This document shows, in pieces, positions 31,787-43,912 of a DNA stretch of 43,912 nucleotides. The stretch is taken from assembly GCA_017650905.1 (NCBI GenBank), contig JAGCDZ010000108.1:1-43912 (forward strand). Direction: 5' to 3'. Numbering within the stretch: position 1 is the stretch's first letter; the number at the start of each line of letters is the position of its first letter. The notes under the pieces are model-generated. The model had not been told where the DNA came from, did not search any database, and saw only the letters and a program-made list of their open reading frames with translations. The DNA is from Prevotella sp. (GTDB taxonomy: Bacteria; Bacteroidota; Bacteroidia; Bacteroidales; Bacteroidaceae). The position numbers and the translations under genes were made by a program.

Positions 31787-31860
31787 GGTCCCGTAGCTTA
31801 GCTGAATAGAGCGTCAGATTCCGGTTCTGAAGGTCCAGGGTTTGAATCCCTGCGGGATCA
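31787..31860 (+). tRNA. tRNA-Arg (anticodon CCG)
   Basis: A full cloverleaf: acceptor GGTCCCG/CGGGATC (one G-U), D arm GCTT...AGC, anticodon stem TCAGA/TCTGA with loop TTCCGGT (anticodon CCG), T arm CAGGG/CCCTG with TTTGAAT. The discriminator is A; CCA is not encoded. The integrase gene starts about 200 bp downstream on the same strand, so the 3' half is the likely integration site. Confidence 0.95.
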
Positions 31861-31902
31861 CGAGGGATAGGCGAAGCCAATCCATATTTGAAAAATCATT
31901 TG

Positions 31903-31942
31903 ATTATCGAGAATCCCTGTAAACAAAGGGCTTCTCGATAAT
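31903..31942 (+). terminator. long hairpin between tRNA-Arg and integrase
   Basis: ATTATCGAGAA (31903-31913) pairs with TTCTCGATAAT (31932-31942), extended by CCCT/AGGG; TTTTC follows. Likely the tRNA terminator, or part of the attachment region. Confidence 0.7.
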
Positions 31943-31999
31943 TTTCATTCAGGGGTATGGGCTTCCAACTTTTTGGTCTCAGTCCAACTTTTAGGGTGA

Positions 32000-32051
32000 A
32001 AAATCGGCGCAAAATCAGCGCAAAATGCCAAAATCGGCGCAAAATCGGCGC
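32000..32051. repeat. 11-bp direct repeats upstream of integrase
   Basis: AAAATCGGCGC at 32000, AAAATCAGCGC at 32011, a short AAAATGCC at 32022, then AAAATCGGCGC at 32030 and 32041. Regular 11-bp spacing (one helical turn) suggests protein-binding sites such as integrase arm sites or operators. Confidence 0.85.
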
Positions 32052-32066
32052 AAATTCTTAATTAAA

Positions 32067-33251
32067 ATGGCAACGATTACAACTGAGTACGGAAAGCTAA
32101 GTAGCAACAAGACAAGAACCGTTTATCTGAGAATCAGAAGCGGCAAGACTGAGAAGCGTATCAACACGCAAGTCAAAGTATTGGAATCCGAAATCTCGCC
32201 TCGCACCAAAAAGATTAAAGACTTTAGCAAGGCGAGGCAGATAGAGATGATGCGTCTGGACTGGGAAACTAAAATCAACCAATTAGGAATTGAAGCCTTA
32301 GGTGTCAAGGTGGATGCTCAAGACATCACTTCTGCCATCAGCAAGAAAGAAGAAGAAACAGACTTCTTTGCCTTTGCCAAGAACTGGCTGGCACACACCA
32401 GCATCAAAGGTAAGAAGAACTACCAATGCATGCTCAACACCTTTTCCTCATTTCTTGGCAAGGAGAATCTTCTCTTTTCCGACCTCACCTACACCCTACT
32501 GAAAGAGTTCGAGAACCACCTCGCCAAAAAGCCCAGAGCACAATCGCTTTACTTGGGCGAACTACGTCATCTGTTCCGTGAGGCGATGCTTGAATTCAAC
32601 ACAAAAGAAAAGACCATCATCAAAAGTGATCCGTTCATCCGCTACAAAGTACCTAAGCAAGTGATGAAGAAAGGAGTCCGTGCGCTTACTTTGGAAGAGT
32701 TGATGAAAGTCTATCACTATCAAGGTAAACCAGGAAGCCGTGCCCAACTCGCGCGTGATACCTTTATATTATCGTTCTGTCTGATGGGAATGAACTCCGT
32801 AGATTTGTTCTCGGCAACGAACTACAAAAACGGCTTCATCAAGTACAACAGAACGAAGACCAAAGACCGCAGAAACGATGAAGCCTACATCGAGGTAAAA
32901 GTTCATCCGTTTATCAAGCCGCTCATGAAGAAATATGCTGGCACCAAAACCGTCTTCAATTTCTGCTCACGTTACAACGACTACGAAGGCTTCAACAAGA
33001 ACTTGAACATCGGTCTGAAAACTGTTGGCAAAGCTGTCGGCATTAGCGACCTCGAATTTTATCAGGCTCGCCACACTTTTGCCACCCTATCCAGAAACCT
33101 GATGAAGTTCAGCAAAGGCGACGTTGATGAGGCCCTCAACCATGTTGGCAGTTTTGAAGTGGCAGACATTTACATTGCGAAGGACTTTTCCATCATCAAC
33201 GATAACAACTTTAAGCTCATCAAACGAGTCTTCAAAAATGAGCTTGCTTGA
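32067..33251 (+). CDS. tyrosine-type site-specific integrase
   Basis: About 394 residues from ATG 32067 (MATITTEYGKLSSNKTRTVY); the frame is open from 32025, but that runs through the direct repeats. Layout: N-terminal arm-binding domain, SAM-like core-binding domain (DFFAFAKNWLAHTSIKGKKNYQCMLNTF), catalytic domain with KTK loop (RTKTKDRRN), FYQARHTFATLSRN (Arg-His box) and the nucleophile Tyr in VADIYIAKDF. The position usually holding the first catalytic Arg (TGLR) reads LMGMNSVDL, a variant that I believe is common in Bacteroidetes integrases. It probably catalyses insertion of the downstream element at the tRNA-Arg. Confidence 0.93.
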   Translation: MATITTEYGKLSSNKTRTVYLRIRSGKTEKRINTQVKVLESEISPRTKKIKDFSKARQIEMMRLDWETKINQLGIEALGVKVDAQDITSAISKKEEETDFFAFAKNWLAHTSIKGKKNYQCMLNTFSSFLGKENLLFSDLTYTLLKEFENHLAKKPRAQSLYLGELRHLFREAMLEFNTKEKTIIKSDPFIRYKVPKQVMKKGVRALTLEELMKVYHYQGKPGSRAQLARDTFILSFCLMGMNSVDLFSATNYKNGFIKYNRTKTKDRRNDEAYIEVKVHPFIKPLMKKYAGTKTVFNFCSRYNDYEGFNKNLNIGLKTVGKAVGISDLEFYQARHTFATLSRNLMKFSKGDVDEALNHVGSFEVADIYIAKDFSIINDNNFKLIKRVFKNELA

Positions 33252-33284
33252 GTGTATCGTTTTTTCGATGGGGCAGCCTAATAC

Positions 33285-33309
33285 CCCTGAAAGTAACATT
33301 TCAGGGTTT
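33285..33309 (+). terminator. hairpin after integrase gene
   Basis: CCCTGAAA, loop GTAACA, TTTCAGGG, then TTT. A perfect 8-bp stem 34 bp after the stop. Confidence 0.7.
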
Positions 33310-33983
33310 GGGCGGGCTGTTAAAGAGCAAGCTCGCCCTTTATTTATGGGCATTTTCGCACATTGATATGATGTACCATTTCTGAATCTGTCAACTCTTT
33401 ATTTTGAGAGGCAAATAAAATGCGAAAACATTCAATTGATGACTCATTGCGACAACAATCTCAGGAAACATTTCATAGAAAAATAGTTCGATTTCTTTTA
33501 AAAAGTTACGGAGAATTTCGACTTTCTTTATGTTTTTTTACGTTCTTTGGCTTAAATTTATCTGACATTTATTTAGAGTTATAGATACAAGTTTGACTAA
33601 ACATTCAATATCTTCGACTAGATTCTGCGCCAACATTTATCCACTTCCAACTTTTAATTAGCAAGGATTTTACATCATTAAAATGGAAAGTTCGACAATA
33701 GTTCAACTAAACTGCGACTAACTCCCATCTTTATATTTCACTTAATTGATCTAAGCATTGTTTCGTCAATGCAAACAATGGATTACATCCACAATTTCCA
33801 CAAATGTACTGCATTTTTCACTTTGGTAATCCTTGAATTAATTCAAACTATAAGAAATCAATAATATAAAGATTATATAGTTTTTCCGAGAAAAAATATC
33901 TATTTTGCTATATTTTCTTAAAATATTTAGATTATTTAGAAACAAATTATTAACTTTGCATTCAAAATAATAAAATTATTAAG
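33310..33983. other. gene-free AT-rich stretch between integrase and ATPase
   Basis: About 675 bp with no convincing gene. A second hairpin (GGGCGGGCT near 33310 against AGCTCGCCC ending at 33338) lies at its left end; a -7 box TAACTTTG (33951-33958) at its right end. The rest is very AT-rich with no recognised repeat or RNA. The base composition drops sharply compared with the core genes to the left. Confidence 0.6.
33951..33958 (+). promoter_or_regulatory. -7 box of ATPase-nuclease operon
   Basis: TAACTTTG, 25 bp before the ATG at 33984. Confidence 0.65.
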
Positions 33984-35240
33984 ATGAAAATTAGCGTTTC
34001 TAATTTCGGTCCAATAAAAAAAGCAAATATTGAAACGAAACAATTCAATATTTTTATTGGTAATACATCTACAGGCAAAAGTGTAGTTGCGAAACTAATT
34101 ACGATATTTAATTCGCAACAATTTACGGACATACCAGTTGGTGATTTTGCATCTTTTCAAAAGTTGTTAGCCGATTACTGTATAGATTTTCAATTTAGTG
34201 ATACAACAACTATTAATGTTATTCAAGACAATATAGAATGGAATATTACGAAGAATTCTATTACACGTGTGGGTGAGCCTTCTACCCCATTGGATTTTAT
34301 AAAACCTGATGGCATTTCAGATTTCCACGACTTTTCCAAAGAATTTGCCAAACATTATGCAGATAAAAAAGAAGATGATGTTTTGCAAAATGCGAGAATT
34401 AACATGATGAAAGTGATAAAAGAGGGTGCTATCAAGGGGGAAATGGATTTTTCTCCAATGACGCAATTTCAAAAGGATTTAATGTATTATACAATCATCC
34501 AGTATGTTAATATAATGTACTCTCCTGTATATATTCCTGCAGAACGAATCTTAATATCCATTTACTCCAACAGTATATTTAACCTTCTCCGATCAGGATC
34601 TACCATTCCGCAAAGCATTAAAAATTTTGGCAGTTTATATGAAAACGCTAGAAATTCACTTAGCAAGATGGAAATTGATTTTTTGAAAATGAAAGTGACG
34701 TTCTCTAAAGAAAGCGATACTATTTTGCTAAATAATGGTACTGAATTAAAATTTAATCAAGCATCAAGCGGTATACAGTCGTTAATACCATTATGGGCTG
34801 TACTTGTCAATTGTTTTAGTAGCCATCCTAAATCTGTTGTTATAGAAGAGCCTGAATTGAACTTATTCCCAACTCTTCAAGTACATCTTATTTCCAATAT
34901 TGTCAAATTAATAAACAACTCCAAATCAAGCATTGTTATCACTACACATAGCCCTTACATCCTTTCAATAATAGACAATCTTATTTATGCTAACGATATA
35001 TATATCAAAGCCAACACTTTAGGCAAAAAGAATCAGAGGCAAAAAGTATTGAGATTAGTAAAAAAAGATACGCTAATTAATTATGAAAAAGTAGCTGCAT
35101 ATTGTTTTAATGATGACGGTACTGTACAATTAATTAATGATCCGGATATGCGAAGTACAGGGTCTTTTGCCATTGATGAAGCCTCAAATGAGACTTCCCG
35201 TTTGTTTAACAAACTTATGTCCATTGAAGATGAGTTGTAA
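33984..35240 (+). CDS. AAA/ABC-type ATPase, candidate defence component
   Basis: 418 residues of the SMC/OLD-like (AAA_15/AAA_21) ATPase class. N-terminal KISVSNFGPIKKANIETKQFNIFIG leads into Walker A GNTSTGKSVVAKL; near the C-terminus are a signature-like QASSGIQSLIPL, Walker B SVVIEEPELNLFP and the H-loop IVITTHSPYILSIID. The middle is helical with no known fold that I recognise. No Toprim domain follows, so it is not a full OLD nuclease; instead the next gene, overlapping by 11 bp, encodes a nuclease-like protein. The paired layout resembles ATPase-nuclease antiphage systems such as Septu or Gabija in plan but not in nuclease type. Strongly AT-rich, which fits recent transfer. Confidence 0.8.
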   Translation: MKISVSNFGPIKKANIETKQFNIFIGNTSTGKSVVAKLITIFNSQQFTDIPVGDFASFQKLLADYCIDFQFSDTTTINVIQDNIEWNITKNSITRVGEPSTPLDFIKPDGISDFHDFSKEFAKHYADKKEDDVLQNARINMMKVIKEGAIKGEMDFSPMTQFQKDLMYYTIIQYVNIMYSPVYIPAERILISIYSNSIFNLLRSGSTIPQSIKNFGSLYENARNSLSKMEIDFLKMKVTFSKESDTILLNNGTELKFNQASSGIQSLIPLWAVLVNCFSSHPKSVVIEEPELNLFPTLQVHLISNIVKLINNSKSSIVITTHSPYILSIIDNLIYANDIYIKANTLGKKNQRQKVLRLVKKDTLINYEKVAAYCFNDDGTVQLINDPDMRSTGSFAIDEASNETSRLFNKLMSIEDEL

Positions 35241-35775
35241 ATGCTTTGAGAAAAAGATTGTATTTAAATCTACAGATGCTTTCAACATAAGATTAAACGC
35301 GTCGAAGTGTAAATGCTCTTCAAGATTTACAGTACATGAGAAAAGAAGTTGTTTTTCTATTCTTTGCAAAGATTGTAAACTTGTTGACAAATATAAGATT
35401 GATGGATATTTCGATAGCGATAAAAGCCATAAAAAGTGTGATTATCTTTTCATATATTACGACAATAATAACAAGAATAATAGAACTATCATATTTGTAG
35501 AATTGAAAGGCAAAGATATAGAACATGCCATTAAACAACTTGATGCAACTATATCAACCTTTGACAAGGAGCATTTCTTTTCAGGGAAAGATGAAAAAGG
35601 GCTAATAGGAGCAGTCGTTTCTACAGGTTACCCGACAGATGATGCCACATTCCGAAAACTGAAAAAAAATTTAATCGACAAATTTAAGAAATACAATATA
35701 CAAGTAGAGCGAAAAACATATCATATGCGATACGACCCTAAAAAAAACAAATGTTTAGGAGTTAATGAGAAATGA
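35230..35775 (+). CDS. PD-(D/E)xK nuclease-like protein, partner of the ATPase
   Basis: 181 residues from ATG 35230 (MSCKCFEKK), overlapping the ATPase gene by 11 bp in another frame; a frame open from 35137 lies wholly within the ATPase gene and is not used. Asp71 in KKCDYLFIYY, then Glu91 and Lys93 in IIFVELKGK, then Gln103 in AIKQLDATI match the spacing of a restriction-like PD-(D/E)xK nuclease core. Upstream Cys residues (C27, C29, C41, C46, C49, with H36) may bind zinc. The family is not recognised by name. Translational coupling suggests a complex with the ATPase, which might control nuclease activity; this is inference. Confidence 0.7.
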   Translation: MSCKCFEKKIVFKSTDAFNIRLNASKCKCSSRFTVHEKRSCFSILCKDCKLVDKYKIDGYFDSDKSHKKCDYLFIYYDNNNKNNRTIIFVELKGKDIEHAIKQLDATISTFDKEHFFSGKDEKGLIGAVVSTGYPTDDATFRKLKKNLIDKFKKYNIQVERKTYHMRYDPKKNKCLGVNEK

Positions 35776-35910
35776 AGGATTGTTACTTTCCACCTCATAG
35801 TAATATGCTTATAAAAATAGAAACTAATTGTGTTTATTTTAATTGTAATTATAGTCATTTATCTTCTCCGTAAAATATTACACTTCACATTCAAAATGCC
35901 CTCTATTCTT

Positions 35911-35939
35911 GGATTATTCAGAAATAATCCTTATCTTCG
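35911..35939 (+). promoter_or_regulatory. possible promoter with perfect palindrome
   Basis: GGATTATT, CAGA, AATAATCC (35911-35930) is a perfect 8-bp inverted repeat directly before TATCTTCG (35932-35939), a near match to the -7 box. It could be an operator. Confidence 0.45.
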
Positions 35940-35950
35940 CATCGTTCATT

Positions 35951-35993
35951 CCTGGTAGTCCCTGAAGCGATTCAAACTATCAGGTGTTTTTTT
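35951..35993 (+). terminator. intrinsic terminator
   Basis: CCTGGTAGT (35951-35959) pairs with ACTATCAGG (35976-35984, one G-U), then TG and seven T. It may end the ATPase-nuclease transcript, or act on the short leader started by the promoter-like site just upstream. Confidence 0.8.
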
Positions 35994-36031
35994 GCCCTTG
36001 ACAATGCTTTTCCCCCATATTATATTGTACA

Positions 36032-36713: not shown

Positions 36714-37163
36714 CTACTGTAATACCCCATTCTGAAATTTTGTTTCGCTAATCTCAAAGGTAAAATGTACACCATTTTGTTCATTTGGTAAAATGGTCGT
36801 TGCGCCGAGCATCATCAAGTCCATACCTATAACCAGTTTATTTCTCGAACCAGGTACGGCAACACCGTCGCGAATAAATACATAATGCTTATCAGAGAAT
36901 CGCAAATAGAATGAGCAATAACGCGATGGTTGGGTAACAGTGCCGAGTTGCATGACGGTTTCTTCACGAAGTGGTATACCCATCTCTATCGCAAATTCCA
37001 TCGGTATGCAAGTGTTTGTGGCCCCAGTGTCCCATAAAGCTTTCAACGTGCGAGTCTTTGCTTGCGTTGGTGATATGAATATACAGATACCAACCTCACT
37101 ACGGATTCTTAAGAATTCGTGTCTGCTAGAAATTACAGGAAGAGTATCAATGTCGATCAACAT
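36714..37163 (-). CDS. retropepsin-like aspartic protease
   Basis: 149 residues with the catalytic DTGA motif in LKALWDTGATNTCIPMEFA, followed by the typical β-flap region and the second family motif LVIGMDLMMLGATTI (hydrophobic-hydrophobic-G-x-D). This is the single-domain, dimer-forming retroviral-type aspartic protease fold. There is no signal peptide, so it should be cytoplasmic. The 18-bp gap to the lipoprotein gene upstream suggests one transcript. The target is unknown; self-contained versions in bacteria are little studied. Confidence 0.8.
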   Translation of the reverse strand: MLIDIDTLPVISSRHEFLRIRSEVGICIFISPTQAKTRTLKALWDTGATNTCIPMEFAIEMGIPLREETVMQLGTVTQPSRYCSFYLRFSDKHYVFIRDGVAVPGSRNKLVIGMDLMMLGATTILPNEQNGVHFTFEISETKFQNGVLQ

Positions 37164-40024: not shown

Positions 40025-40588
40025 CTACAAATTACGTTCATGAGCTGCTATAATCAACGCCCGTTCTTCGGTGAAGGTCTTGATACTCCTAATGATAGTC
40101 TGAGTATCGAAGTAGCTATAGAACCGCTCATAGAAGCCTGCCTTGAAATTGAAGAAGAACAGCATCAGTTCACTCGCCTTTAGCCAACGGAATCTACTAT
40201 AGATTGCCATTGCCGTGAACTGAAGTTGATCTTTTGTCACGTCTTCCTTTAATCCACAACTCAGACTGGCATCTGCAATCAATGGAATAAGCCATTTGGC
40301 AGAAGTGAATGAACCATACATGATATCGACCTCTGTCAATGTTGGCGAGGGACCAAAGAAGCAATATGTTGGATCCTGGCAAATGAGCAGTTGCCTTTGT
40401 GAACTAAAAATGTTAAAAAAGTATTCAACTGTCGGAAATCTCTGTAGCAACCACTGTCTCTGCTGGGATAGCTGTGGTTTCTGCAGCAAAGTTGAGACCG
40501 ACAATTGCCTGGACTGCGTTTTGATATACGTCCCGTTTTCTTCTTTCCGTTCCGCTAAGAGTTGGGTAAGTGTTTCTGGTTGTTTCAT
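40025..40588 (-). CDS. DUF6633-like hypothetical protein
   Basis: 187 residues; the only early Met is at 40588 (MKQPETLTQLLAERKEENG). It has no membrane segment or known catalytic motif. The C-terminal half is helical (KDQLQFTAMAIYSRFRWLKASELMLFFFNFKAG). I associate it with DUF6633, a family of mobile-element proteins in Bacteroidetes, with moderate certainty. Its first 164 bp overlap the end of the upstream gene in another frame, so it is probably translated by coupling from that transcript. Confidence 0.65.
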   Translation of the reverse strand: MKQPETLTQLLAERKEENGTYIKTQSRQLSVSTLLQKPQLSQQRQWLLQRFPTVEYFFNIFSSQRQLLICQDPTYCFFGPSPTLTEVDIMYGSFTSAKWLIPLIADASLSCGLKEDVTKDQLQFTAMAIYSRFRWLKASELMLFFFNFKAGFYERFYSYFDTQTIIRSIKTFTEERALIIAAHERNL

Positions 40589-41231
40589 TTTGAATGGTGT
40601 TTATGTTTAATGGATGTGTCTCCCAGTATCGCTCTGAGAGAAAGTTATCAAAGTTCTTTCTGTATCTGACTTCTGGCGTGGATGCGACATACAGAGGGAT
40701 GTAAGCAAGAATACTATCCCTATTCTTGGCAGACAGGGAATTCCATTTCTCTTTTAGAGTTTCAACATTCCCTACTGGCTTTCCATACATCTCCCAGACA
40801 GTCTCAAAAGAATAGTCCGCCCCACTCCCCTCACTGATGATAAGAGCGTTAGCGTTATCATCATCATTGTCAGTCTTATTGTCATTATCACTATTATTAT
40901 CATTTTGGCATGCGTTCGGATGCGGTGGCATGCGATCGCATGCAATCGCAGGTGGTTGCTCTTCCTGATGCTGCTTCTCATACCGTTTCTTGGCATTCGT
41001 AACATTACGTTCACAACGTTCTTCATACTTCTTGTGGTCACGATCTATCTGCGTGCATAACATCGTAAACAATGCAGTTAATGCAGTATCTGACGATTCG
41101 AGCATCTGACCATTCCTACCATAGCGCAGCACCGCTTTAAAAAGAATACCAGCCTGTTCGTCTGTCAAATAATCAATAGCAACGGCGCTATCAAGATAGA
41201 GAATAATACTTTTGATTTCTTTCTTAACCAT
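40425..41231 (-). CDS. DUF6291-like replication-associated protein
   Basis: About 268 residues from ATG 41231 (MVKKEIKSIILYLDSAVAIDYL), chosen because the promoter TACTTTTG lies at 41267-41260, after the earlier Met at 41273. N-terminal part: LTDEQAGILFKAVLRYGRNGQ and CERNVTNAKKRYEKQ, as in DUF6291 proteins related to phage replisome organisers. A low-complexity Asn/Asp linker (NDNNSDNDNKTDNDDDNAN) follows, then a DnaT-like helical end (FETVWEMYGKPVGNVETLKEKWNSL). It probably loads replication proteins on an element; this is inference. Confidence 0.7.
   Translation of the reverse strand: MVKKEIKSIILYLDSAVAIDYLTDEQAGILFKAVLRYGRNGQMLESSDTALTALFTMLCTQIDRDHKKYEERCERNVTNAKKRYEKQHQEEQPPAIACDRMPPHPNACQNDNNSDNDNKTDNDDDNANALIISEGSGADYSFETVWEMYGKPVGNVETLKEKWNSLSAKNRDSILAYIPLYVASTPEVRYRKNFDNFLSERYWETHPLNINTIQNETTRNTYPTLSGTERRKRDVYQNAVQAIVGLNFAAETTAIPAETVVATEISDS
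40928..40943. repeat. perfect 16-bp palindrome within DUF6291-like gene
   Basis: GCATGCGATCGCATGC, self-complementary, next to a further GCATGC at 40908-40913 and a triplet-rich Asn/Asp tract. It may simply reflect linker codons. Confidence 0.8.
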
Positions 41232-41259
41232 ATCAAAATACAATTTCAATTTTTGGCTG

Positions 41260-41267
41260 CAAAAGTA
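41260..41267 (-). promoter_or_regulatory. -7 box of DUF6291-DUF6633 pair
   Basis: TACTTTTG on the minus strand, 28 bp before ATG 41231. Confidence 0.6.
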
Positions 41268-41385
41268 AACCAATAAAGCGACGATACAAGTGATTATAGC
41301 AAAATCTCAAAAATTTAACATTTCAAGGCGATATTGTTCACAGAATTTCGGACTCTGCCTGAAAAAAGTACTCTTGAAATTTGGC

Positions 41386-43912
41386 TTATTTCAATGTCAA
41401 CTCCAATAGCTCTGCCGCAATTTCAGGACCATCAATCCGCATCAGACTATCTTCCTCCCGCCCTCTGGAGAGAAGGTTTAAACTGCCATACCAAACAAGT
41501 GATTGGTCAATTACAGCATAACGTTCATGACACTTATTCTGCACATTTACGATGAATCCTGCGTCACTCAACTGCTCCAGCAATTCTGCATGGTGTTCCC
41601 TACCGTCCTCTGGATAGTCCTCTGTACATAGAGAAAAAATGGTGAGAGTTACGCCTCTTTTCTGAATAGTCTCAGACTGGTCTGCAAGCCAGTCAACTTT
41701 CCTTGAACTAAGGTATGGACTGGAGATGACGATGCTCCTCTTTGCAGAAAGAATATCCTTCTCAAATATATGCCAATAGCCAGCATAATCAAAGATGGAA
41801 TTGTTCACCACCTGCTTATCCATCACTTCCGTACAAACCTCAAAACCTATTTTCTTATAAGTTCTCAAACGCCGATGATACATCCGTTCTAATACGGGAA
41901 TGTGTTTATCAATATAGTCGAAGATGATGACATCCTTTTTCCCTTCATAATCGCGGTTCAGTCGGCCTGCGTATTGCTCGACATTTCCTTCAAATGATAT
42001 CGGCATTGCCAATAGCATTGTGTCTAATCGTGGATAATTAAAACCCTCACCGATATATTGCCCTGTTGCGACGAGGATTACACTTTCGTCGCGACTCACC
42101 GATGCCATTTTCTCTCTCAATTCGGTTCGTGCTTTTAAGCCTGTTCCCCCTTGTAATAGGAAGACATGTGCTGCTGCACCTTGCAAAAGGGTATATAAAG
42201 TTTCAGCATGTTCCCTATATTTAGTCATCACTACTGGAGTCCTGCCTTTCTTGACACAATCTATCGCATCAGCCACGATTTGCATATTCCGCAACTCATT
42301 ATCGACAATTAACCGATTCAATTCTGAAATATGTCTATCTTCTGATGATGATAGGTCAACAATCCTCGTAAACCGAGGATATACATAATGACCAATACCC
42401 TGTTTCTCTGCCCGTTCTTTGGCGGTATACCTATGCCGAATAGGCCCTAACTGCATATACAGCTTACGTTCTTGTTTGTCACCCCGCTTCACGGTAGCGC
42501 TCATACCATACACATATTTGGCAGTCGATGCCCGCAGAACGTTTTCAAAAGTTGCTGCAGCTGCATGATGGCATTCATCCACTATTATCATCCCGTAATC
42601 GCGCACCATCGGATTGACGTCATCCATCTTCCCTAACGAACCTATCATGCCAACATCAATGATTCCCGTTGCCGCCTTCTTCTGAGAGGAGAAAGTACCA
42701 ATGACTGAATCTCTTTGTTTAATGCGACCTTTGGGTGTAGTATATGTCGGCAGTTCTTCATTGATTACAAGGAATCGTTCCAAATCTCTGACCCAGTTAT
42801 TCATAATCTCAGCGGTATGCACCAGTACAAGCGTATTGACCTTCCGTTTGGCAATCAGATTAGCGCCAATGACGGTCTTACCAAAAGCTGTTGCAGCTGC
42901 CAGCATCCCGTTATCATAATTCAGGAGATGTTCAACCGCAACAATCTGTTCTGAATACAGTTCCTCCCTGAAAGAAACATCTATAGTCTGTCCTTTCTGC
43001 CTCTTATCCTTGATATCATAGGGGATCCCGGCCTCAGACAAACGATTCTTCAGTTCTTCGAAACAACCTCGTGGCAAAACGATATAATCACCATTGTCAT
43101 ACCCGTCATATACTATTCGTGGTGTTTCACGAGTAGAGAATCCTAAGGCCAGATTCTGGTAGAACTGCGGATTTGTATAGGCAGCCAGTCTCCTGATGGC
43201 ATTCTGCAAACGTGGTTTCAAATTCCGTTTGTCAACATATACGCCATCAGCGAGAATAACTTTCACCGTTCCATCTACATCGTCTGTTTTAAAGTAACGG
43301 GGCAAAGGAAGGGGACTGGTTCCAAAGAGGAGCAAGTTTCCGTCTTCAGACTCATCCACCTTGTCACTTTGGAACAATTTCATGGTGTCAGCCTCTGGAC
43401 ACCATGCCTTGATGTACGTATCTACATCTGTTTCAGACAACTTCCGCGTATGCATCAACTTTTCCCATTGGTCATGGTATGGTCTCCATAGTTCATCCAC
43501 AAAAGCACTATTTCCTTTACGAAGTGCTTGTCCCTGAAGAGGCAGGGCGATGAGATTTCCCAATTTCCCTTCAGGTAGGCTATCCTGCATTGGCATCATC
43601 CTGTCATAATATTGGAAACTCTTCAGACTAACCGATTCTGATCCCTTAGCCAGTAATGCTTCACCAAATCTCCGAACTTTCGCCGCTTGGATAGCTTCAT
43701 TCATGAATATCCATACGTGGGCACCATGACCCGATCTGGAACGTTCTACCAATGCATCAATTCCGACCGATTGGCAAATTTTCCTCAGCGCATCAACTTC
43801 CCGTTCCCATCCTTCCTTTGGAGAAGCATCCTCTTCATGATTGTCGAAGTCAAAAACCAGGAACCAACATGTTCCATCTGGAAAAAGTGGATATAAACCG
43901 ATTACATCGGTG
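41386..43912 (-). CDS. TOTE-type primase-helicase-PLD conflict protein, 5' part outside window
   Basis: At least 841 residues; the frame stays open to the right edge, so the N-terminus is missing (TTG at 43752 is not the start). Domains in order: archaeo-eukaryotic primase with catalytic DxD in FLVFDFDNHEED and the SxH motif in SRSGHGAHVWIF; an SF2 helicase with Walker A AAATAFGKTVIG, Walker B IIVDECHHAAAATFENVL, SAT in YGMSATVKRG and motif VI VEQYAGRLNRDY; and a C-terminal phospholipase-D-type nuclease with CHERYAVIDQSLVWYGSLNLLS (HxRx4D in place of HxKx4D). This matches the primase-helicase of TOTE conflict systems, proposed to act against invading DNA. The final residues ELLELTLK end 112 bp before the DUF6291 promoter region. 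Confidence 0.85.
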   Translation of the reverse strand, partial: TDVIGLYPLFPDGTCWFLVFDFDNHEEDASPKEGWEREVDALRKICQSVGIDALVERSRSGHGAHVWIFMNEAIQAAKVRRFGEALLAKGSESVSLKSFQYYDRMMPMQDSLPEGKLGNLIALPLQGQALRKGNSAFVDELWRPYHDQWEKLMHTRKLSETDVDTYIKAWCPEADTMKLFQSDKVDESEDGNLLLFGTSPLPLPRYFKTDDVDGTVKVILADGVYVDKRNLKPRLQNAIRRLAAYTNPQFYQNLALGFSTRETPRIVYDGYDNGDYIVLPRGCFEELKNRLSEAGIPYDIKDKRQKGQTIDVSFREELYSEQIVAVEHLLNYDNGMLAAATAFGKTVIGANLIAKRKVNTLVLVHTAEIMNNWVRDLERFLVINEELPTYTTPKGRIKQRDSVIGTFSSQKKAATGIIDVGMIGSLGKMDDVNPMVRDYGMIIVDECHHAAAATFENVLRASTAKYVYGMSATVKRGDKQERKLYMQLGPIRHRYTAKERAEKQGIGHYVYPRFTRIVDLSSSEDRHISELNRLIVDNELRNMQIVADAIDCVKKGRTPVVMTKYREHAETLYTLLQGAAAHVFLLQGGTGLKARTELREKMASVSRDESVILVATGQYIGEGFNYPRLDTMLLAMPISFEGNVEQYAGRLNRDYEGKKDVIIFDYIDKHIPVLERMYHRRLRTYKKIGFEVCTEVMDKQVVNNSIFDYAGYWHIFEKDILSAKRSIVISSPYLSSRKVDWLADQSETIQKRGVTLTIFSLCTEDYPEDGREHHAELLEQLSDAGFIVNVQNKCHERYAVIDQSLVWYGSLNLLSRGREEDSLMRIDGPEIAAELLELTLK

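Follow-up and report, generated by a model that had tools for sequence, protein, structure and literature searches.

We describe a two-gene module in a 43,912-nucleotide stretch of Prevotella sp. DNA (GenBank assembly GCA_017650905.1, contig JAGCDZ010000108.1, forward strand; hereafter the window), in which a gene for an ABC/OLD-type ATPase is followed by an overlapping gene for a small nuclease-like protein. Our best explanation, in which we have good but not complete confidence, is that the two genes form an abortive-infection module of WonAB type (PDC-M29), which an integrative island at a tRNA-Arg gene carries as interchangeable cargo. Judged from sequence, a defence function is likely because of the pairing itself, the conservation of a PD-(D/E)xK motif, the matches of the two genes to the PADLOC models PDC-M29A and PDC-M29B, and the presence of an Abi_2/PD-T4-5-like gene in the equivalent slot of two sister islands. 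The pair also likely belongs to the WonAB/PDC-M29 group. An initial annotation of this DNA had read the pair as a candidate defence module that it could not place in any named system. The defence interpretation is supported, whereas the supposed absence of a fitting described system was wrong, as the pair matches both PDC-M29 models and resembles WonAB in anatomy and key residues. It is a real member of an already published kind, not a new kind of system, and its cysteine cluster is a clade-specific elaboration.

Both open reading frames (ORFs) of the annotated pair lie where they had been placed, on the forward strand. The first (33984..35240) encodes the 418-residue WonA-like ATPase, identified by Pfam, PADLOC and AlphaFold2 (AF2) modelling; the second (35230..35775) encodes the 181-residue PD-(D/E)xK nuclease-like, WonB-like putative effector, identified by PADLOC, alignment and AF2. 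The two genes overlap by 11 bp. A mechanical ORF list starts the small gene further upstream, giving 212 residues, but the 181-residue start is preferred because M-S-C-x-C is kept at that point across the window's clade. The pair is AT-rich, as had been noticed, with a G+C content of ~31% in bins 34001-36000 versus 41-57% in bins of the first 30 kb.

The ATPase matches the Pfam families AAA_15 (4.2e-24) and AAA_21 (1.2e-10), and its PADLOC matches are PDC-M29A (7.8e-40), AriA (7.6e-26), PD-T4-4_A (3.1e-21), PtuA (1.3e-13) and GajA (1.5e-10). All of the motifs attributed to it in the initial annotation are present. These are a Walker A motif, GNTSTGKS (residues 26-33; 34059..34082, forward strand), with K32 invariant in all 42 aligned ATPases; an ABC signature, SSGIQ (residues 261-265; 34764..34778, forward strand), in which G263 and Q265 are invariant and S261 and S262 are each at least 90% conserved; the Walker B pair E288-E289 (34848..34853, forward strand), invariant throughout; and an H-loop, H322 (34947..34949, forward strand), conserved in at least 90% of sequences. 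R188 is invariant too. This alignment (A5) comprises the window ATPase (P0002) and 41 of 79 ATPase references; most of those left out are near relatives, and the most divergent ATPases, L026 and L027, with a Walker A of GENG[AS]GKT, were left out as well. PDC-M29A is matched at 1e-10 or better by all 42. The AF2 model of the ATPase has a mean predicted local distance difference test (pLDDT) score of 85.7 and a predicted template-modelling (pTM) score of 0.83; it is a single-chain model and ends in a C-terminal helix (399-417) of lower confidence. A Foldseek search with this model gave retron/Septu PtuA and Rad50 as the best rows, with AriA among the 50 matches listed; E-values reached down to 7.7e-9, at TM-scores of only ~0.3-0.45.

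For the small protein there is no Pfam family above cut-off and no NCBIfam match at E <= 1, and its sole PADLOC match at E <= 1 is PDC-M29B (1.9e-6), which covers residues 64-118 only. The defence-system search that the initial annotation had recommended for both genes therefore returns the A and B models of one candidate system, adjacent and in order, although PDC-M29 is a candidate label that has no description in the PADLOC table and was not found in the literature searched. At 0.01 or better, the PDC-M29B model PDLC04563 is matched by 15 of 26 aligned nucleases and PDLC04564 by two. That alignment (A3) consists of the window protein (P0001) and 25 of the other 30 loci, the near-duplicates L009, L010, L015 and L016 and the broken L020 being left out. 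D58, C70, D71, E91, K93 and Q103 are invariant in all 26 rows, five of which came from a search that used the E-[LM]-K stretch as its pattern. The D71...E91-x-K93...Q103 residues noted initially are present and conserved.

The presumed active-site residues are D71 (35440..35442), within the C70-D71 motif, and E91 and K93 of E91-L92-K93 (35500..35508), followed by Q103 (35536..35538), all on the forward strand. In the AF2 model built from the 26-row alignment (pLDDT 85.4, pTM 0.83), the order of elements is strands 72-77 and 85-93, helix 97-113, strand 122-131, helix 139-151 and strand 157-163. D71 leads into the first of these strands, E91 and K93 close the second, and Q103 lies inside the helix that follows. 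This order fits that of the PD-(D/E)xK core fold. The PD-(D/E)xK assignment is made because of the motif and the model topology, with weak support from two of the 26 members that match the type I restriction enzyme family HSDR_N (best 5.8e-5), and the predicted fold is compatible with a PD-(D/E)xK nuclease. Weak Foldseek matches of the model in the PDB include XPF, EcoO109I, CdiA-CT and Cdn1. Searching solved structures by sequence brought no useful match to the small protein (best E 0.38), and the A3 profile gave nothing at E <= 10.

The two genes travel together. Counted from the nuclease side only, the ORF immediately upstream is an ATPase in 89 of 93 rows by script, and in 90 when L087 is included, a script miss in which the frame before the nuclease encodes an ATPase with 47% identity to P0002. 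The 93 rows are the window and 92 fetched loci (L001-L092), duplicates and the window's own copy included, and four loci whose ATPase is short or in pieces (L011, L020, L022 and L030) were counted as present. The remaining three rows (L038, L048 and L059) end at a contig edge with 134, 75 and 139 bases upstream. The co-occurrence elsewhere that the initial annotation had named as a check is therefore seen in every locus with enough upstream DNA. The C-D...E-[LM]-K...Q pattern is present in 79 of 80 distinct nuclease ORFs, one of which fits only if two residues are allowed between C and D, and the exception is the broken copy L020. Because seven loci from a viral contig collection and 60 named loci were found by way of the E-[LM]-K pattern, the conservation of E and K in them is partly by construction, and a fairer count is 23 of the 24 loci fetched without the motif as search pattern.

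A single-sequence search with the small protein found 10 of 200 same-genus genomes, and a profile search with the nuclease found 13 of 393 genomes of the order, the window's own genome being included in both counts. In the viral contig collection, the single-sequence search for relatives of P0001 found none; the nuclease profile found seven loci, and a peptide pattern one more, on the same contig as L014. The 60 named loci, obtained with peptide patterns from a genome contig collection, include many metagenome bins and names such as Prevotella, Segatella, Bacteroides, Flavobacterium, Lachnospiraceae, Geobacillus, Kosakonia, Burkholderiales, Verrucomicrobiaceae, Pyrinomonadaceae and Cylindrospermum. 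The contig titles of relatives cover Bacteroidota, Bacillota, Pseudomonadota, Cyanobacteriota, Verrucomicrobiota and Acidobacteriota. With tblastn, P0001 matched 2 of 72,556 plasmid records and 1 of 50,697 phage records, and the L013 nuclease matched two records of each kind.

The described system closest in anatomy is WonAB. Its main report (PMC12137116, 2025) describes WonA (AWB73975.1) as an OLD-type ABC ATPase and WonB (AWB73976.1) as a PD-(D/E)xK variant of 16.1 kDa predicted mass, together a tested abortive-infection system from the WASA-1 prophage of Vibrio cholerae. Both proteins are needed for defence, which is abolished by WonA K34A, R182A, E300A and H333A and by WonB K71A; overproduction of WonB is toxic only alongside WonA with an intact ATPase; and the chromosome stays intact, with data pointing to translation arrest (PMC12137116). 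The same text states that homologues of the 'OLD-ABC ATPase + Novel REase' operon encompass all WonAB hits, and these operons (Krishnan et al., via PMC12137116 and PMC12409358) have the same two-gene organisation as the window pair. An Anaerovibrio reference pair has the accessions SHI83489.1 and SHI83462.1 (PMC12137116). The testing reported in both papers concerns the copy from the Vibrio cholerae prophage, and neither 'Bacteroid' nor 'Prevotella' occurs in the main text of PMC12137116.

Like WonAB, the window pair is an operon of an ABC/OLD ATPase and then a small PD-(D/E)xK protein, the fold of the latter being assigned by motif and model topology, and it has a mobile-element location. Going by motif alone, the WonA residues K34, R182, E300 and H333 (PMC12137116) likely correspond to K32, R188, E289 and H322 of the window ATPase, and the spacing of 33 between E289 and H322 equals that between E300 and H333. 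WonB K71 and window K93 are likely counterparts too, if K71 is, as we infer, the lysine of E-x-K. WonAB also has a C-terminal ATPase extension to which the nuclease binds, and the lower-confidence C-terminal helix of the window ATPase model may or may not answer to it. Primer sequences given for WonAB add further likenesses. A wonA quantitative PCR (qPCR) primer is readable, in one of two open frames, as PQANGK, a Walker A stretch, and the wonB reverse qPCR primer, in its sole open frame, reads CDWILS, which resembles the family's C-D motif; CDW is present in L012 and L014. The reported WonB mass fits the 139-145-residue members L012-L014. The Walker A motif of L013, L014 and L058, GPQAQGKS, is one letter off the wonA primer reading, as is the GPQASGKS of several other rows, so WonA itself may or may not fall with L013, L014 and L058 on the ATPase tree described below. 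Exact matches to the wonA and wonB forward primers were absent from 32 loci, as were matches to the wonA forward primer from the viral contig collection.

Rather than a close copy, the window pair seems to be a relative of WonAB type. Its nuclease has 181 residues, compared to the 16.1 kDa of WonB, and bears an N-terminal CxC...CxC cluster; its Walker A is GNTSTGKS, against PQANGK in the wonA primer reading; and wonAB is described as lying downstream of a putative regulator gene (PMC12137116), whereas the window has no ORF of at least 70 residues in 33367-33983. The window pair also differs in belonging to a Bacteroidales clade. In a quick ATPase tree with Shimodaira–Hasegawa-like approximate likelihood ratio test (SH-aLRT) support only, the window groups with L002, L079 and L080 (support 99), and with L060 and L070 added (again 99), apart from a clade of L013 and L014 (viral collection) and L058 (Kosakonia).

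Septu and retron PtuAB, PARIS AriAB, Gabija and PD-T4-4 have a related OLD/ABC-type ATPase half, and each was considered and rejected on its partner or domain content. The partner AriB of PARIS is of Toprim/DUF4435 type; PADLOC returned no AriB match for the small protein at E <= 1, and Pfam assigned it no family above cut-off. Septu was set aside as the small protein shows no PtuB or HNH match, and a PD-(D/E)xK-type motif instead. Gabija combines GajA, with a Toprim domain, and the helicase GajB; the 418-residue ATPase has no Pfam Toprim match and the small gene no GajB match. For PD-T4-4, the ATPase does match PD-T4-4_A, but its partner matches PDC-M29B only.

The genomic setting supports the defence reading. 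A tRNA-Arg(ccg) gene (31787..31861, forward strand) is the attachment site of the island, and copies of its 3' part are found at the far end of sister islands. A tyrosine integrase gene (32025..33251, forward strand; Phage_int_SAM_5, 4.8e-9) follows; the initial annotation had put it two genes from the pair, and it is in fact the direct neighbour gene. Sister islands sit at the same tRNA-Arg in two genomes of the genus, and their integrases are 98% (G138) and 93% (G081) identical to that of the window. The window aligns to these islands at 92-93% over 31787-33383 and at 90% over 35909-35997, and the DNA between these flanks differs, amounting to 2.5 kb in the window (33384..35908, the variable cargo slot that holds the pair, read on the forward strand) versus 0.86 kb in the sister islands. 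In both sister islands the slot holds an Abi_2 gene (Pfam 6.2e-7 and 5.2e-7; PADLOC PD-T4-5 1.1e-13 and 2.9e-14); the two slot stretches are 93% identical DNA and hence not independent. Scans of ten ORFs of the two islands also found AbiH (8.8e-53) in G138, along with GH25 lysozyme-like, DnaB-like and leucine-rich repeat proteins without a strong defence match, and FRG/PDC-S15-like, Fic/PDC-S04-like and TOTE-like genes in G081. At the far island end, the repeated stretch of tRNA measures 49 bp in one sister island (L124) and 47 bp in the other (L125), at ~92% identity. The window is a whole contig, and the far end of its island would lie beyond it.

Some further features of the islands were observed. 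G138 has a WonAB-type pair elsewhere (L004, G138:C1), though its island (L124, G138:C23) holds the Abi_2-like gene. Towards the contig end, the window carries on the reverse strand an AEP-TOTE/helicase/PLD-like protein of a TOTE conflict system (41386-43752, listed from an internal start), of which a 972-residue copy is present in a sister island (L125:3068-5986). A DUF6291 protein and an overlapping 187-residue ORF (40025-41273, reverse strand), with ~92% DNA identity in both sister islands, are probably island backbone. A small clan-AA aspartyl protease-like protein (36717-37163, reverse strand; gag-asp_proteas 9.7e-6, below cut-off) is island cargo. A 471-residue protein of a sister island (L125:11523-12938) matches nothing in Pfam at 0.01 or in PADLOC at 0.001.

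We propose that the WonA-like ABC/OLD-type ATPase, probably as a dimer, would serve as infection sensor and gate, and that the WonB-like PD-(D/E)xK protein would be the effector, held by or activated through the ATPase. On infection the ATPase would license the nuclease, cellular nucleic acid would be cut, and growth would stop ahead of phage maturation. If the analogy with WonAB holds, the target would most likely be tRNA or rRNA, with translation arrest as the outcome; we infer the sensor and effector roles, the ATP-gated activation, the RNA target and the abortive character of the response from this analogy.

Other readings of the same pair must be weighed. It is possible, if doubtful, that the module is a defence system whose nuclease cuts phage or host DNA directly and not RNA, by restriction or DNA-end sensing in the manner of Rad50/Mre11-like or Septu-like complexes. 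PD-(D/E)xK is mostly a DNA nuclease fold, and both the HSDR_N matches and the closeness of the ATPase model to PtuA and Rad50 would suit such an activity. However, no methylase was found with Pfam among ten window proteins scanned, and the intact chromosome and apparent translation arrest reported for WonAB (PMC12137116) argue for another target. The small overlapping operon, its mobile island and the strict pairing would also suit a toxin-antitoxin pair that stabilises the island, with the nuclease neutralised by the ATPase; we consider this improbable, as WonB is toxic only with ATPase-intact WonA (PMC12137116), which, if the analogy holds, is the opposite of what an antitoxin would do. A housekeeping or recombination function for the island, such as DNA processing for integration or transfer, is suggested by the position of the pair beside the integrase at the attachment site, yet seems very unlikely given that the sister islands, with integrases 98% and 93% identical to that of the window, lack the pair there and have the Abi_2-like gene instead, and that homologues occur on contigs of several phyla.

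Several points also weigh against reading the pair as a WonAB-type abortive-infection module. The ATPase half is unspecific, since 41 of the 42 aligned ATPases also match the PARIS model AriA at 1e-10, and at least 9 of the 26 aligned nucleases match no PDC-M29B model at 0.01. Neither of the outcomes that the initial annotation had named as refuting was observed, but fold libraries support the nuclease core weakly: the AF2 topology fits PD-(D/E)xK, but a Foldseek search of the nuclease model against the PDB and BFVD gave no match at E <= 0.001, and acetyl-CoA carboxylase takes the best PDB rows when these are ranked by E-value. Kinship with WonAB is suggested by residue positions, primer readings, PADLOC matches and the published description of that system, in which the RNA target is itself only suggested (PMC12137116). 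Finally, the window's clade has a Cys-rich N-terminus and may differ in mode of action.

The Cys cluster picked out in the initial annotation is real. It has the layout CxC-x21-CxC in the window nuclease, comprising C3-x-C5 (35236..35244, forward strand) and C27-x-C29 (35308..35316, forward strand), and all four cysteines are invariant in the seven aligned clade members, of which L060 is aligned from its second residue. Among the sequences inspected, other nuclease branches keep parts only, namely M-x-C, CxC or single cysteines, and the quartet appears to be clade-specific as far as looked at. The cluster might bind metal. That the window represents a Bacteroidales sub-clade of WonAB-type systems whose nuclease bears an N-terminal metal- or redox-binding module is a speculative suggestion, to which we give rather little weight.

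The regulatory signals around the pair are of uneven strength. A promoter had been annotated upstream, and a possible -7 element of Bacteroidota type, TAACTTTG, is indeed present at 33951..33958 (forward strand), read against the Bacteroidota promoter consensus. The evidence for it is weak: the promoter script found no -33 partner for this element, and TAnnTTTG occurs 12 times on the forward strand of the window. The annotated terminator stands on firmer ground, with a hairpin at 35951-35984 followed by seven T residues (35951..35993 in all, forward strand), a folding energy of -16.7 kcal/mol for 35935-36000 and ~90% conservation in the two sister islands; a simple scan whose model permits loops of 3-8 bases does not list it.

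The hairpin is found, with up to 3 mismatches, in 9 of 200 genus genomes, the window's own included. The stretch containing it (35941-35999; L131:7314-7372, L127:7715-7759) directly follows the tRNA-Arg in G040; in G031 it comes ~100 bp after the tRNA-Arg, and another hairpin-like stretch with a T run stands between the two. The hairpin could therefore be a terminator of the tRNA, moved away by the island, instead of having evolved with the pair. Imperfect 31-nt direct repeats (33824-33854 and 35953-35983; 25 of 31 positions identical) flank the pair, and the downstream copy is part of the hairpin. In a test made after the repeat had been seen, 1000 shuffles of the two flanks all stayed below 25 identities; a looser control was less clear, as the 20-nt repeat core, with up to 3 mismatches allowed, had at least two matches in 13 of 100 shuffled windows, the real two having 0 mismatches. 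At up to 3 mismatches, the window's own genome (71.55% complete) has the core at these two copies only.

On the tRNA-Arg islands of Prevotella-type bacteria, the pair is seen as cargo that can be exchanged, and it belongs to a clade that goes unnamed in the main text of the WonAB paper (PMC12137116). If the Cys module does bind metal or respond to redox state, it could control the nuclease or anchor it to the ATPase, and the clade would represent a variant in which a further trigger is linked to metal or redox state. The clade-specific Cys cluster offers a concrete starting point for asking how the nuclease stays silent until infection.

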